Of a stretch of DNA of 64,000 bases, positions 8,266-16,342 are shown one piece after another (position 1 is the stretch's first letter; every line of letters starts with the position of its first letter). A model generated the notes under the pieces. The model saw only the letters and a list, made by a program, of their open reading frames with translations, was not told the DNA's origin and did not search any database. Source of the stretch: Halobellus sp. LT62 (GTDB lineage Archaea; Halobacteriota; Halobacteria; Halobacteriales; Haloferacaceae); assembly GCF_037031285.1 (NCBI RefSeq), contig NZ_JAYEZO010000002.1:806001-870000 (forward strand), given 5' to 3'. The translations under genes and the position numbers were made by a program.

Positions 8266-8483
8266 CACCGTGTTGTCGAGAGAATTGCAGTCGTCGAAAG
8301 CGGGTGTTGACGCTGGAGACTGACGTTTTCGGTCGACGATCGTTGAGACAGCTCTCGACGACCAACGTTTCGAGATCGGTAGCCGCCGTGACGGCCCTTG
8401 TTTGACTCGGTGGAATCGGACCCCTCCTCGGTCGGGATCCAGTCGGTGTGAGAAGACGATCGCGGACCGGGGGTTTCGTCATC

Positions 8484-8491
8484 CTTTTTAC
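8484..8491 (+). promoter_or_regulatory. TATA box of the Rieske gene
   Basis: CTTTTTAC centred about 25 nt before the ATG at 8513. It implies a leaderless mRNA and fixes that ATG as the start. The rest of the 279-bp ppc/Rieske intergenic region shows no further feature. Confidence 0.55.
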
Positions 8492-8512
8492 CGGCGGGTC
8501 GAAGTATCTCGT

Positions 8513-9358
8513 ATGAGCGAGCGCGACAAGTATCCGGCGGAGTCGGGTCGACGCCGGTTCGTGAAGGGTGTCGTGGGGGGTGCGACGCTCGCGGGCGTCG
8601 GCGCAACGGGCGCGACCGCGATCAACTCCGCGACGCAGGCCGCCGGAGCGGGCGGCGGATCGACCGTGGCGTACGCGATCGAGAACACCGACGGTCCCGC
8701 GCCGCGCGGTATGCCCCAGATTCCGGTCGAGATCGACGACGAGGGGTACCTTCGCGGCGTTTGGCCGGAAGTGAAGACAGTCGACCAGAACGGAATTCAG
8801 GTCACTATCGCCGAGACCGCGGACTTCAAAGGCTCGGGCGTGACCTACGGGTCCGACTGGTTCCAGTACTGCGGCGTCGAGTCCTACGGCGGGATCGACC
8901 CCGAGTACGACTCGGACAACTACTTCCGATCGGGGTCGGAGCCGGGCTACGAGTGGCAGAGCGAGGCGTACTCCGAGGGCGATCGGCTGCACGTCGACGA
9001 CTTCGACGACTATCAGGACTGGTCGAACGGTATCGGTTCCGATGGGCTCGGAAAGCCCGCGACCGGCCGCTGGCGCTCCGAGGACGCCGAGGACGTCATT
9101 CCGATTCAGGTCATCAAATCCGACCGAGTGATGGAGTTGGCGCAGAACAATCCGTGGCTCGAAGCTTCGACCGAGGAGGGCTACATCGCGTGGCTGAACA
9201 AGTGTACGCACTTCTGCTGTGTGCCGAAGTTCAAGTCTGAGGGGTCGGCGAAGTTCAACGCCGAAGACGACGTCTACTGTCAGTGCCACCAGTCGGTCTA
9301 CGACCCGTTCAGCATCGTCGAGACGCTGTTCATCGCGCGGCCGCGTCCGACCGGATAA
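8513..9358 (+). CDS. Rieske 2Fe-2S protein of a cytochrome bc-type complex
   Basis: 281 residues. A Tat motif (RRRFVKG, 13-19) and a following hydrophobic Ala/Gly stretch suggest a twin-arginine signal or anchor with the iron-sulfur domain outside the membrane. The cluster motifs CTHFCC (231-236) and CQCHQS (256-261) are intact, with a tail ending SVYDPFSIVETLFIARPRP, typical of the haloarchaeal quinol-oxidising complex subunit. Unusually, no cytochrome b genes follow: the next gene is a membrane regulator. It therefore either serves a bc complex encoded elsewhere or is a second, orphan copy. Electron acceptor unknown. Confidence 0.85.
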   Translation: MSERDKYPAESGRRRFVKGVVGGATLAGVGATGATAINSATQAAGAGGGSTVAYAIENTDGPAPRGMPQIPVEIDDEGYLRGVWPEVKTVDQNGIQVTIAETADFKGSGVTYGSDWFQYCGVESYGGIDPEYDSDNYFRSGSEPGYEWQSEAYSEGDRLHVDDFDDYQDWSNGIGSDGLGKPATGRWRSEDAEDVIPIQVIKSDRVMELAQNNPWLEASTEEGYIAWLNKCTHFCCVPKFKSEGSAKFNAEDDVYCQCHQSVYDPFSIVETLFIARPRPTG

Positions 9359-10709: not shown

Positions 10710-11816
10710 ATGGGTATCGCCGAGACATATACACGCGGACGGCAGTTCGCGGTCGCACGACCGGGCACCGTACTGCTGGCGCTCGTGGGGGGCGTGCTGC
10801 TGGCGGATCTGCTCACGGGTCTCGCAACGGGACGGCAGTCCTTCAGCGGCGTCGGGTCGCTCGTCTGGGACGGGCTGATGCGGGGGCTGGTCGTCGGTCT
10901 CGCGGGCATCGGGCTCTCTATGACGTACAGTATTCTGAACTTCGCGAACTTCGCGCACGGTGATTACATCACTGCGGGCGCGTTCTCCGGTTGGGCGACC
11001 ACGTATCTCATCGCCGGATTCGGGCGCGCCGACGTGGGGGCGCTGTTGCTCGTCGGCGCGGGCGGGTCCGTCTTTGGCGGGTCGCTCGGTATTGGAATCA
11101 CGGGGACGCCGATCGCGGTCGTCGCGGGCATTCTCGTCGCCGGGATCGTCACCGTCGGACTGGCGCTTTTCATCGACCGAACCGCGTTCCGTCCGATCCG
11201 CGACGCCGACGGGATCACGCTTCTCATCACCAGTATCGGCGTGGCGTTCGCGCTTCGCTACCTGATGCAGTTCGTCTTCGATTCGAGCGTTCGGGGGACG
11301 ACGTCTCAACCCCCCGCCCTCGGGCTATATCTCGTCGACGGGTTCGTCCGCATCAACGCACACGATATCGCGCTCGCCGTGGTCGCGGGCGGGTTGATGC
11401 TCGGGGTGCATCTCCTCCTCCAGCTGACGAAGCTCGGCAAGGCGATGCGGGCGATGGCGGACAACGAGGATTTAGCGCAGATCACGGGAATCCCGACCGA
11501 ACGCGTCGTCCGCGCCGTGTGGGTGATCGGCGGCGGACTGACGGGGATCGCGGGCTATATGTTCATTCTCTGGAAGGGGACGCTCGGCTTCAACGACGGG
11601 TGGCTGCTTTTGCTCTTGATCTTCGCGGCCGTCATCCTCGGCGGAATCGGCTCGATCTACGGGGCCATCGTCGGTGGTCTCGCAATCGGGCTGACGGCGT
11701 CGCTATCTGTCATCTGGATCCCCTCGGCGTTCACACGCGCGGCCGCGTTCGCGGTGATGATCGTCTTGCTCTTGGTGAAACCTGAGGGGCTCTTCTCCGG
11801 GAGGACGACCGCATGA
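10710..11816 (+). CDS. livH: Branched-chain amino acid-type ABC transporter permease
   Basis: 368 residues, LivH family, one of two membrane subunits of a high-affinity importer. Typical features are the early SMTYSILNFANFAHGDYITAG segment, about eight transmembrane helices, and the EAA-like loop AMADNEDLAQITGIPTERV that contacts the ATPases. The N-terminal 60 residues include an extra hydrophobic helix. First gene of livHMGF: the stop overlaps livM by 4 bp. A TATA-like element (TTATCA, near 10666) lies upstream. Substrate could be branched-chain amino acids or related amides; context does not decide. Confidence 0.9.
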   Translation: MGIAETYTRGRQFAVARPGTVLLALVGGVLLADLLTGLATGRQSFSGVGSLVWDGLMRGLVVGLAGIGLSMTYSILNFANFAHGDYITAGAFSGWATTYLIAGFGRADVGALLLVGAGGSVFGGSLGIGITGTPIAVVAGILVAGIVTVGLALFIDRTAFRPIRDADGITLLITSIGVAFALRYLMQFVFDSSVRGTTSQPPALGLYLVDGFVRINAHDIALAVVAGGLMLGVHLLLQLTKLGKAMRAMADNEDLAQITGIPTERVVRAVWVIGGGLTGIAGYMFILWKGTLGFNDGWLLLLLIFAAVILGGIGSIYGAIVGGLAIGLTASLSVIWIPSAFTRAAAFAVMIVLLLVKPEGLFSGRTTA

Positions 11817-13147
11817 GCGTCCGAAACGACATCGCCGACCGCATTCCGGGAGGCGACGCGGGGCTGATCGTGGCCGTCTTACTCACCGTCTACGCCACGT
11901 ACGTACTCGCCGGCGTGGTGCTCGGCTACTCACTCCGCGGGCAACTGAACACAATTGCGGTCCTGACGTTCTACATCGCCGTCTTCGCGATGCTCGCGCT
12001 CGCACTCAATCTCCATTGGGGGTACACGGGGCTGTTTAATATCGGGATTGTCGGGTTTATGGCGGTCGGAATCTACGTGATGGCGCTGGTGTCGAAACCG
12101 GTGTACACCCCCGGCGGTGCAGCACAGGTCGGCGGGCTCGGGCTCCCGCTCATCGTCGGAATCATCGCCGGGATGGCGGCCGCCGCGCTGTTGGGGTTGG
12201 TGATCGCGTTACCGGCGTTGCGGTTGCGTGCGGACTACTTGGCGATCGTCACGATCGCGATGTCCGAGATCGTGCGCTTTTCGTTCCTCTCCGGGGACTT
12301 AGGCAAGTTCCAGCTGTTCGGCAAGCGCGTCGGGTTCGGCGGCGGCTCCGGACTCATCCTCGATTTCACCGATCCGATGGAGGCGTTCTTCCAGTTCTTC
12401 GGCCTGTGGGACGCGTATCTCGGGTTCGTCGGTGCGTTCGAGATCATCATTCCGAACAACCCGAAGCCCGTCGTCGACGGACTCGTCTACGGCGTGGTCC
12501 TCTTGGGTTTCGTCGGTAGCTACTACTGGCTGCTCAAGCGGACCGGCGAATCGCCCTTCGGACGCGTGTTGAAGGCGATTCGCGAGGACGAAGACGCCGC
12601 GAACTCTCTCGGAAAGAACACGAACCGCTTCAAGATCAAGGCGTTTATGCTCGGGTGTGCGCTGATGGGACTCGTCGGAATCCTGTGGCTGATGACGAGC
12701 GGCTCGATCACGCCGAACTTCTTCCGGCCGCGCGTTACCTTCTTCATATGGATCGCGCTCATTATCGGCGGTTCGGGGTCGAACACCGGCAGCATCCTCG
12801 GCGGAGCGGTCTTCGCCGCGCTGCTGTTTCAGGGACCGCGGTACGCGAAAAACCTTATCGATACCGTGCTGCCGAATGCCGACGCACCGTCGAGCTTCGG
12901 TCCGGCGGTCGCCCCGCTGTTCACGAACTTCGATCCGGCACCGCTGTTTTTCTACACCATCGACAGCGTCAGACAGCTTCAGTTGGTGTTTATGGGGCTC
13001 GTGCTCATCTGGTTGATGCATAACCGCCCCGAGGGGATGCTCGGCCACCGCAAGGAGACGGCCGCGGGCATTCCGTTGACGGCATCGCGAGCCCGCGGTC
13101 CGGCGAGTGCAGACGGCGGCGAACGTGGAGGTGAGGTCGATGAGTGA
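11813..13147 (+). CDS. livM: Branched-chain amino acid-type ABC transporter permease
   Basis: 444 residues, LivM family. It carries the signature NLHWGYTGLFNIGIVGFMAVG and the coupling loop GRVLKAIREDEDAANSLGKN that meets the ATP-binding subunits. It is longer than bacterial LivM because of an extracellular insertion around residues 160-220 and a hydrophilic C-terminal tail. ATG overlaps the livH stop and the stop overlaps livG, indicating tight co-translation. Confidence 0.9.
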   Translation: MSVRNDIADRIPGGDAGLIVAVLLTVYATYVLAGVVLGYSLRGQLNTIAVLTFYIAVFAMLALALNLHWGYTGLFNIGIVGFMAVGIYVMALVSKPVYTPGGAAQVGGLGLPLIVGIIAGMAAAALLGLVIALPALRLRADYLAIVTIAMSEIVRFSFLSGDLGKFQLFGKRVGFGGGSGLILDFTDPMEAFFQFFGLWDAYLGFVGAFEIIIPNNPKPVVDGLVYGVVLLGFVGSYYWLLKRTGESPFGRVLKAIREDEDAANSLGKNTNRFKIKAFMLGCALMGLVGILWLMTSGSITPNFFRPRVTFFIWIALIIGGSGSNTGSILGGAVFAALLFQGPRYAKNLIDTVLPNADAPSSFGPAVAPLFTNFDPAPLFFYTIDSVRQLQLVFMGLVLIWLMHNRPEGMLGHRKETAAGIPLTASRARGPASADGGERGGEVDE

Positions 13148-14036
13148 TGCGGACGCCTCGAACGCCGACGTTACGGTCGACGAGTCGACCGAAACGGCCG
13201 GGTCCGGAAGGAATCCTGCGGCGTCGAGTAGACTGGATCTCGGCTCCGGCGGCCCCGACGTCTCCGAACAGTACCCGCTGCGGGTCGACGATCTCCGGAA
13301 GACCTTCGGCGGGATCACCGCCGTCGACGACGCGTCGTTCCGAGTCGAACGCGGGACCCTCACCGGTCTCATCGGTCCGAACGGGGCCGGTAAGTCGACG
13401 ACGTTCAACCTCATCACCGGGATGTTGGCCCCGGACTCGGGCACCGTCACGTTCGACGGCGAGGAGATCACCGGTCAGCGGCCCCACGCGATCGCGAACA
13501 AGGGACTCGTCCGGACGTTCCAGATCGCGAGAGAACTTCGGGATATGACCGTCTTGGAGAACCTGATGCTCGCACCGAAGGGGCAGCGCGGAGAGGAACT
13601 GTGGCGCTCCGTCACACCGGGCTTTCGCGACGACGTCATCGAGCAGGAGGAGGAACTCCTCGAACGGGTCTGGAACGTCCTCGAGTTCTTCGATATCGAT
13701 CACATCGCCGAGGAGTACGCGGGGAACCTCTCGGGCGGACAGCGAAAGCTGCTGGAGATGGCCCGAGCGCTCCTCACCGATCCGGATATGCTCCTCCTCG
13801 ACGAACCGTTCGCGGGCGTCAATCCGTCGCTGGAGAAACGCCTGCTCGAACACATACACGAACTGCGCGAGCAGGGCTACACGTTCCTGCTCGTCGAACA
13901 CGATATGGACTTGATTATGGAGAACTGCGAGCGAGTGATCGTCCTGCACCAGGGGCGCGTCCTGACTGAGGGAACCCCCGCGGAGATTCAGGCGGACGAG
14001 GAGGTTATCGAGGCCTACCTCGGAGGGAACGTATGA
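13140..14036 (+). CDS. livG: ABC transporter ATP-binding protein
   Basis: 298 residues from the ATG at 13140, which overlaps the livM stop. Walker A GPNGAGKST, a LivG-specific NLITGM and TFQIARELRDMTVLENLM Q-loop region, the ABC signature LSGGQRKLLEMA, Walker B MLLLDEPFAGV and the switch His in LLVEHDMD are all present. The first 45 residues are a low-complexity acidic extension not found in bacterial LivG. It supplies one of the two ATPases of the liv importer. Confidence 0.93.
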   Translation: MSDADASNADVTVDESTETAGSGRNPAASSRLDLGSGGPDVSEQYPLRVDDLRKTFGGITAVDDASFRVERGTLTGLIGPNGAGKSTTFNLITGMLAPDSGTVTFDGEEITGQRPHAIANKGLVRTFQIARELRDMTVLENLMLAPKGQRGEELWRSVTPGFRDDVIEQEEELLERVWNVLEFFDIDHIAEEYAGNLSGGQRKLLEMARALLTDPDMLLLDEPFAGVNPSLEKRLLEHIHELREQGYTFLLVEHDMDLIMENCERVIVLHQGRVLTEGTPAEIQADEEVIEAYLGGNV

Positions 14037-14812
14037 GCGCCGACGCGGAGCGAGAGCCGTCGCACGACGCGGACGTGTCCCAAGAGACCATCCCGGATCG
14101 AGAGGGACAGTCGCTCCTCGAAGTTCGCGACCTCGACGCGGGGTACGGTGACCTGCAGATCCTGACCGGCGTCGATATGGACGTCGCGGGGGGCGAGTAC
14201 GTGACCATCGTCGGCCCGAACGGCGCGGGGAAGTCGACGGTGATGAAGTCCATCTTTGGGCTCACGTCCCTGATGGGCGGAACGGTGACGTTCAAGGACA
14301 GAGACATCACCGGACTCCGACCCGAGGAGGTCATCCACGAGGGGATCGGCTACGTTCCGCAGAACGATAACGTGTTCCCCTCGCTGACGGTTCGGGAGAA
14401 CTTGGAGATGGGCGCGTACATCCTCGATTCGGTGCCGCAGGACGCGCTCGACGCCGTCTTCGAGCGCTTCCCGATCCTCGAAGAGCGGCAATCGCAGAAG
14501 GCCGGGACGATGTCCGGCGGCCAACAACAGATGCTCGCGATGGGCCGCGCGCTGATGCTGGAGCCCTCGCTGCTCCTGCTCGACGAACCGTCCGCGGGGC
14601 TCGCGCCCGACCTCGTCGACGATATGTTCGACCGAATCGACGCGATCAACGACGACGGGACGGCGGTCCTGATGGTCGAACAGAACGCCAAGGAGGCGCT
14701 GCGACGGTGCGACCGCGGCTACGTCCTCGCGAACGGACGGAACCGGTATATGGACGACGGCGACGCGCTCTTGAACGACGAGCAGGTCCGAAAGGACTTC
14801 CTCGGCGGGTAG
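14033..14812 (+). CDS. livF: ABC transporter ATP-binding protein
   Basis: 259 residues with Walker A GPNGAGKST, Q-loop VPQNDNVFPSLTVREN, signature MSGGQQQMLAMG, Walker B LLLLDEPSAGL and switch His replaced by Gln in LMVEQNAKEAL, as is normal in LivF. It overlaps livG by 4 bp and closes the livHMGF operon. The cognate binding protein is probably the convergent gene at 14960-16342. Confidence 0.93.
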   Translation: MSADAEREPSHDADVSQETIPDREGQSLLEVRDLDAGYGDLQILTGVDMDVAGGEYVTIVGPNGAGKSTVMKSIFGLTSLMGGTVTFKDRDITGLRPEEVIHEGIGYVPQNDNVFPSLTVRENLEMGAYILDSVPQDALDAVFERFPILEERQSQKAGTMSGGQQQMLAMGRALMLEPSLLLLDEPSAGLAPDLVDDMFDRIDAINDDGTAVLMVEQNAKEALRRCDRGYVLANGRNRYMDDGDALLNDEQVRKDFLGG

Positions 14813-14959: not shown

Positions 14960-16342
14960 TTACTCGCCCGAGCTGGACAGCGCTTCGCTAATGGCGGAGG
15001 AGTACGAGGACTCGCCGATGTTGATCCCGAGTTGGTCGTACACTGCGCCATCGAACTCGTCTTCGAACACGTTACTGAAGCGCTCGGAGAGCTGCTGGCC
15101 GTAGTCGTTGTTAATGTAGATCGTCGCGACCGTGCTCACTTCCAGCCGTTCGGCCATCACTTGCGCCATCACGCGGCCTTGGAGTCTGTCGGAGGGGGCC
15201 GTCCGGAAGATGTAGTCGTCGTCTTCGAGGTTCGACACCGATAGCGCGGTGGAGGACGGAGACATTCCCACGATCTGGTTCGGAATGAAGACCTCCTGAG
15301 CGACGGCGACGTTCACACCCGATGACGCTGAGCCACAGACGCTCGGTACGCCCGCGCTCGCGAGCGATTCGGCGGCCGCCGTCCCGGCGCTCGGCGAGGT
15401 CTGGGAGTCTTCGACCTGCGCATCGACCGAGAGACCGGCCGGATTCGCGTCGTTGACCTGCGTTACGGGCAGTTCTGCGGCTTGGATCATCGGTCCGCCC
15501 ACGGAGGCCAGATCGCCCGTCTCGGGGAGGAGAATGCCGACCGACATCTCGCGGTCGCTCCCGCCGGACGCGCTGTCGGCGGCGGGACCGCTGCCGTCGG
15601 GGTTCGCTCCCTCGAAGTTCTGCACTTCGAGTGTCTCGTCGGTTTCGTTGTTGAACTCCCAGACGGCGTAGGCCGCAGAGGCCGGATCGCCGTTCTCATC
15701 GAAGTTCGTCGCCGACGATGCGCCCTGATAGTTCACGTCATCGCCGTTCGCGGCCGCCTCGATTCCCTCAACGAGGTTCTCCGGTGTGACTTCCATCCCG
15801 CCGGGGTTGGCGATCCGACGCATCTGATCGCGGACCGCGGTCCCGCTGTTCTCGCCGGCCGCGGCGTTCGCGAGCAGTTGGAGCGCGACCGAGTCGTACG
15901 ATTGGGACGTGAACACGCCCGGTGAGGCGTCGTACTCCTCCTCGAAGAGGGAACTGAAGGCCTCTTGGCTCGGACCGCCCGCCGCGGGCGCGGTCCCGGT
16001 GACGTTCGCCATCTCGTTCCCGACCTGTCCCGGCAGGTCCCCGTCGCGAAGCCCGTCTGGAACGAGGATCGTTTCGCTTCCGTCCGACTGACTGTAGTAG
16101 TCGCGGAACAACTGAATTCCGCTTTCGGGGTAGCAGATGAAGACGAGACCTTCCGGCCCGTCTCCGGATCCCCCGCTGTCGCCGCCACTGTCGCTGTCGC
16201 CGCTGCTGTCTCCACCGCTGTCTCCGCCACTGTCGCCGCCGTCGTCTGGGCTACCAACACACCCGGCGATTCCGCTCGCGCCGATCGCTCCCGCCGCGCC
16301 CACTCGCTTCAGGAATCTACGCCGTACGATATCACGTGCCAT
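14960..16342 (-). CDS. LivK-type substrate-binding lipoprotein, circularly permuted
   Basis: 460 residues. A Tat-type RRRFLKR leads to lipobox GIAGC (Cys28), then a Gly/Ser/Asp-rich tether (29-63). What follows is the family fold in swapped order. Residues about 65-245 match what is normally the second half (FICYPESGIQLFRDYY, VPDGLRD, NVTGTAP, NYQGASSATNFDENGD). A linker (246-264) leads to 266-460, normally the first half (MSVGILLPETGDLAS, AQVEDSQTSPSAG, SGVNVAVAQEVFIPNQIVG, YINNDYGQQLS). The chain ends at SYSSAISEAL, exactly where the usual protein would continue into the strand that begins the first half here. The ATG at 16342 lies 27 nt after a TATA box, so the in-frame GTG at 16348 is unlikely. 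Likely partner of LivHMGF. Confidence 0.88.
   Translation of the reverse strand: MARDIVRRRFLKRVGAAGAIGASGIAGCVGSPDDGGDSGGDSGGDSSGDSDSGGDSGGSGDGPEGLVFICYPESGIQLFRDYYSQSDGSETILVPDGLRDGDLPGQVGNEMANVTGTAPAAGGPSQEAFSSLFEEEYDASPGVFTSQSYDSVALQLLANAAAGENSGTAVRDQMRRIANPGGMEVTPENLVEGIEAAANGDDVNYQGASSATNFDENGDPASAAYAVWEFNNETDETLEVQNFEGANPDGSGPAADSASGGSDREMSVGILLPETGDLASVGGPMIQAAELPVTQVNDANPAGLSVDAQVEDSQTSPSAGTAAAESLASAGVPSVCGSASSGVNVAVAQEVFIPNQIVGMSPSSTALSVSNLEDDDYIFRTAPSDRLQGRVMAQVMAERLEVSTVATIYINNDYGQQLSERFSNVFEDEFDGAVYDQLGINIGESSYSSAISEALSSSGE

Follow-up and report, generated by a model that had tools for sequence, protein, structure and literature searches.

Analysis of a 64,000-nucleotide stretch of the Halobellus sp. 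LT62 genome (hereafter the window) showed that one of its genes encodes a true circular permutant of the LivK-type (Peripla_BP_6) fold, in which the usual second half of the family precedes the usual first half. We are highly confident in the reading as a whole, namely that this is a lipid-anchored LivK-like protein serving a LivHMGF transporter, that its gene was permuted in place with at least two and probably three origins, and that a second permutation followed later. A first-pass annotation of the same DNA had proposed a natural circular permutant, and the order of the profile matches, the predicted structure and the conservation of the arrangement across many genera all bear this out. 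It had missed that the permutation is widespread and has probably arisen more than once, with second permutations in two lineages.

The two halves of the window protein are in swapped order

The lipobox, tether, second half, linker and first half lie in the order given by the first-pass annotation, and the features are collected in Table 1. The Pfam profile Peripla_BP_6 matched the window protein in two stretches with an E value of 6.3e-27, exceeding the cut-off. Profile positions 3-189 corresponded to residues 267-457, and positions 199-311 corresponded to the early segment, residues ~71-177 (E 1.9e-5 when this segment was scanned alone). Matching of the separate halves to Peripla_BP_6/LivK, proposed earlier as a check, thus gave the swapped and not the native order. 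When the protein was rotated back, a single collinear match was obtained (residues 6-313 to profile positions 3-311) and the score rose from 95.6 bits as found to 109.2 bits. A phmmer search against the PDB showed that residues 265-455 align with the start of LivK/leucine-binding chains, and the rotated copy aligned with 4gnr and 3td9 without a break at the old junction. Assignment of the usual second half is based on the Pfam match and the rotated-copy PDB alignment, and that of the usual first half on the profile match, phmmer and the predicted-structure alignment.

Table 1. Features of the permuted gene and the adjacent transporter genes (window positions)
Feature	Position	Strand	Basis or remarks
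LivH-like permease	10710-11816	+	NCBIfam matches below cut-off
LivM-like permease	11813-13147	+	NCBIfam matches below cut-off
LivG-like ATPase	13107-14036	+	NCBIfam matches below cut-off
LivF-like ATPase, tail-to-tail with permuted gene	14033-14812	+	NCBIfam matches below cut-off; synteny survey
Permuted lipoprotein gene	14960-16342	-	Intact ORF, 460 aa; ATG at 16342, stop 14960-14962
Tat-like signal (RRRFLK) and lipobox to Cys28	16259-16342	-	Sequence; motifs in permuted relatives
Gly/Ser/Asp-rich tether, residues 29-62	16157-16258	-	Sequence; tether lengths in relatives
Usual second half, now first, residues 63-244, GLVFICYPESG to LEVQNFE	15611-16156	-
Linker of 19 residues, 245-263, GANPDGSGPAADSASGGSD, old C-terminus to old N-terminus	15554-15610	-
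Usual first half, now last, residues 264-460, REMSVGILLPETGD to SAISEALSSSGE, plus stop codon	14960-15553	-

The computed order cannot be ascribed to chance, because the mean column identity of 66 aligned permuted proteins is 69% over the entire permuted order. With two intact collinear blocks in exchanged order and a linker that bridges the old termini, the window protein meets the description of a natural circular permutant. It has the profile match over both halves that marks a LivK-type/Peripla_BP_6 protein and, as a permuted variant, lacks the usual LivK arrangement in which the first half precedes the second. The new termini lie in a helix-strand loop of lobe 2 (native ...ALS/x-PD-VLVVIGYP..., the slash marking the cut). 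Across the main permuted clade the linker keeps a similar length and motif.

The permutant is predicted to keep the fold and the ligand pocket

Structure prediction, the second check proposed earlier, was carried out on the mature window protein by AlphaFold2 without templates, and returned a confident bilobed fold (pLDDT 92.5, pTM 0.90). A structural alignment in chain order placed model residues 203-398 on LivK residues 1-194 (Z 15.3, rmsd 1.9 A). Such an aligner covers only about half of a permuted model, so the missing other half is what is expected of a permutant and is not evidence. The type I bilobed periplasmic-binding fold is thus supported for residues 203-398 by structure and for the other half by sequence.

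Pocket-type residues from both halves are conserved in the 66 permuted sequences: D96, S341 and T365 are invariant and position 71 (Y71) is Y or F. We take these four to be the positions that contact the ligand in the E. coli LIV-binding protein. At residue 70 (codon at window 16133-16135, minus strand) the window protein has Cys, where Gly stands in the GYP motif of the remaining 65 permuted relatives in the alignment. This replacement is the one point in favour of a decaying pseudogene, or of a protein that has lost ligand binding, an explanation we regard as very improbable in the face of dN/dS values of ~0.13-0.26 in comparisons with the window protein, the invariant pocket-type residues, the confident fold and the conserved linkage to the transporter. 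Among the permuted relatives dN/dS was 0.13-0.31, indicating purifying selection.

Permuted genes are widespread in Halobacteria

A scan of GTDB contigs gave 30 relatives, including ones from Halobellus, Haloquadratum, Halorubrum, Halorussus, Halospeciosus and Haloglomus. The order of the window protein was shared by 27 of them, and the other three (L071-L073) are permuted in a different way. With a permuted-order profile and a threshold of E <= 1e-105, the permuted gene was detected in 171 of the 391 Halobacteria genomes in the sample, spread over 34 of 86 genera, a count that includes three carriers (G330, G394 and G402) of a second form, CP2, described below. Among the matches listed at this threshold, nearly all were full length and had the permuted order. 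An assembly or annotation artefact in the LT62 genome can for practical purposes be dismissed, as the same order recurs in many genomes that were assembled independently, both from isolates and from metagenomes; the search of related genomes, also suggested by the first-pass annotation, thereby rules out misassembly.

No permuted form was found outside Halobacteria among the phylum matches listed, which were half-length only, and where both half-matches were listed they stood in native order. A tblastn search against plasmids gave only matches below 60% identity, the piece order of which was not read.

The distinct genes compared comprised 140 once-permuted (CP1), 57 native-order and 5 twice-permuted (CP2) genes. 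A lipobox-like motif was present in 137 and an RR motif in 139 of the 140 distinct permuted relatives, and the median tether length was 34 residues in permuted relatives versus 27 in native-order ones. One permuted gene (L241, G103:C2:2081012-2083870), from the group named clade B below, is apparently interrupted, perhaps by an insertion element, with query residues 13-393 and 386-496 matching sites ~1.4 kb apart. Another (L108, G008:C1:1456937-1458028), a second permuted gene, runs at its C-terminal end into masked bases and unrelated sequence and is possibly truncated.

Permuted and native genes occupy the same locus beside livHMGF

The first-pass annotation had stated that the protein keeps a secretion signal and lies next to its livHMGF transporter. 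Both statements hold, the former by the RR signal and lipobox and the latter by LivH/M/G/F-like genes spanning 10710-14812. Among the loci examined, the binding-protein gene lay tail-to-tail with LivF at 67 of 75 CP1, at all six CP2 and at 32 of 45 native ones. Native-order sisters, which share 47-60% identity with the first half of the window protein, hold the identical syntenic position in other species. Since CP1, CP2 and native genes usually share this position convergent with LivF, the data indicate in-place rearrangement of a single orthologous locus.

Elsewhere in the window, an ORF at 8402-9358 (plus strand) carries a CTHFCC...CQCH motif. We presume this motif to be of Rieske type, and a minus-strand neighbour to be phosphoenolpyruvate-carboxylase-like; both assignments rest on sequence motifs only.

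A second permutation occurred in two sublineages

In the CP1 order the second half is followed by the linker and the first half. In CP2 genes (L071-L073, L114, L116 and L121) the chain begins with the first half from strand 2 on and continues with the second half, the linker and the first strand-helix unit. The model of a CP2 protein (pLDDT 83.7, pTM 0.81) aligned over residues 2-340 with 3td9 (LivK) residues 55-367 (Z 30.8), so the first strand-helix unit of the family now stands last in the chain. The linkers in CP2 are similar to those of the main CP1 clade (GDNPEGSGPSADE...), which suggests that CP2 is derived from CP1. The CP2 genes form two separate groups, both inside the clade of the window protein (clade A), and their union into one clade was rejected on the binding-protein tree (p-AU 0.00026). 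Two sublineages of the main clade were permuted again, the new N-terminus now being in the loop that precedes strand 2 in lobe 1.

The same cut arose more than once

Rotated sequences were aligned and trees were computed under LG+C20+F+G4 PMSF with 72 and 85 rows. Six architecture changes were needed with either data set, and also in the separate tree of each half. Gene conversion as the cause of the scattered permuted genes is unlikely, because the two halves give concordant trees. Clade A received support of 100/100. Clade B (L166, L208-210, L238 and L240; 100/100) was nested within native-order genes, and clade C (L182, L200, L206 and L260; 100/100) formed a third permuted group. A further gene, L207 (clade D), may belong with clade C.

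On the binding protein, the AU tests rejected all permuted genes as one clade (p-AU 0.003), A with B (p-AU 0.0006) and B with C and D (p-AU 0.006); C with D was not rejected (p-AU 0.34). L207 also groups with C in the transporter tree, and an origin of clade D independent of C is not supported. On an independent marker of LivM, LivG and LivF, one clade of all permuted loci (p-AU 0.002) and A with B (p-AU 0.001) were again rejected, and joining B and C was not (p-AU 0.34). In a quick transporter tree some few native loci fell within clade A, and A as one clade was not rejected (p-AU 0.33). These p-values are optimistic, as the clades were named after the first tree had been seen.

A single ancestral permutation, with the scattered native genes explained by a subsequent return to native order, by the substitution of native paralogues or by errors in the tree, would fit the nearly equal cut point and linker length of all permuted genes: clades A, B and C and L207 are all cut at one loop, to within about two residues, and linkers are ~17-22 residues long. 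It would also fit the failure of the transporter tree to separate B and C. Nevertheless, one clade of all permuted genes and the pairing of A with B are each rejected on both markers, the halves analysed separately show the same pattern, and the linkers of B and C have no visible sequence similarity to that of A. We therefore reject a single origin, to which we still allow a small residual chance. There is good support for at least two origins of the same cut, and three is the most likely number; the count of three rests on the binding-protein tree only, because the transporter tree does not separate B and C.

A possible route and working of the permuted protein

There is no experiment on ligand binding, transport or lipidation, and the functional role is inferred. 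Both halves would cofold into an ordinary Venus-flytrap with the ligand pocket rebuilt from the two, and the flytrap would capture an amino acid and hand it to LivHMGF. That the ligand is branched-chain or similar is likewise inferred, in the absence of a binding assay. In CP1 the lipid tether is inferred, without lipidation data, to leave lobe 2 instead of lobe 1, a shift that follows from the anatomy of the protein; in CP2 it would emerge from lobe 1 again. Any benefit of the shifted anchor is speculation.

The first-pass annotation had suggested that tandem duplication followed by loss of the outer halves produced the permutant. Duplication and trimming, in place at the locus convergent with livHMGF, remains the likeliest route by inference. 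The suggestion is plausible and has not been demonstrated, as the ORFs of the loci examined included no fused double-length (N-C-N-C) intermediate. Tandem pairs of CP1 genes lie by one livHMGF set in L106 (4799-7630, plus strand) and L107 (6380-8994, minus strand), so the locus does duplicate; in both pairs, one gene is without a clear lipobox.

Permutation may also have been neutral, any tolerated loop being able to serve. The same loop would then recur since few sites tolerate termini, or since the Gly/Asp-rich tether DNA resembles that of the Gly-Asp-Pro-Asp loop and leads to the same deletions. The cut loop does join a helix and a strand, and Gly/Asp richness is common to tethers and loops. 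Against this, the termini moved again in two sublineages and permuted forms persist through much of the class, although neither observation excludes neutrality. We consider the matter evenly balanced; neutrality concerns the cause of the permutation and is compatible with repeated in-place permutation of a LivK-like gene.

Comparison with known systems

The window protein shares both halves, the bilobed fold, the pocket-type residues and the adjacent livHMGF genes with LivK/LivJ proteins of the Peripla_BP_6 family (PF13458), such as Thermotoga TM1135 (3td9) and Atu2422 (3ip5), and differs in the rotated chain, the linker joining the old termini and the tether on lobe 2. Its native-order haloarchaeal sisters (e.g. 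L117, L118, L134 and L298) have the same livHMGF synteny, with the ordinary N-then-C order and no linker.

One precedent for a natural circular permutant of a type I binding protein has been described, TpMglB-2 (Tp0684) of Treponema pallidum, which has relatives among Gram-positive bacteria. The authors of that study proposed the class 'Type Ic / Cluster Bc' and suggested a tie to tethering (PMC4990184). In TpMglB-2 the first three N-lobe strands lie at the C-terminus, there is a fourth hinge crossing, and the moved part is poorly similar in sequence (PMC4990184). Both systems are tethered type I binding proteins with a natural circular permutation. TpMglB-2, however, belongs to the sugar (MglB) branch and the haloarchaeal protein to the LivK branch, in which the halves are clearly alignable, the cut lies inside lobe 2 (CP1) or before strand 2 (CP2), and permutation has more than one origin and was repeated. 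The Cluster Bc arrangement, with three N-lobe strands moved and the C-lobe order unaffected, is not met because the cut of the window protein is inside lobe 2 and the sister forms move the first strand-helix unit only. No earlier report of haloarchaeal or LivK permutants was found in the open-access papers searched, which leave out most subscription journals.

It is rare for a natural circular permutation to have close relatives that are not permuted. In this case a single gene exists in native, once-permuted and twice-permuted form at a shared syntenic position, in related organisms some of which can be cultured. This opens to direct test both how the change came about (duplication and trimming) and why (anchor position, folding or neutrality). 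The rearrangement is missed by annotation with domain names. The permuted pairs are natural templates for the design of binding-protein sensors, and the case is a rare natural experiment in rewiring protein chains without loss of fold.
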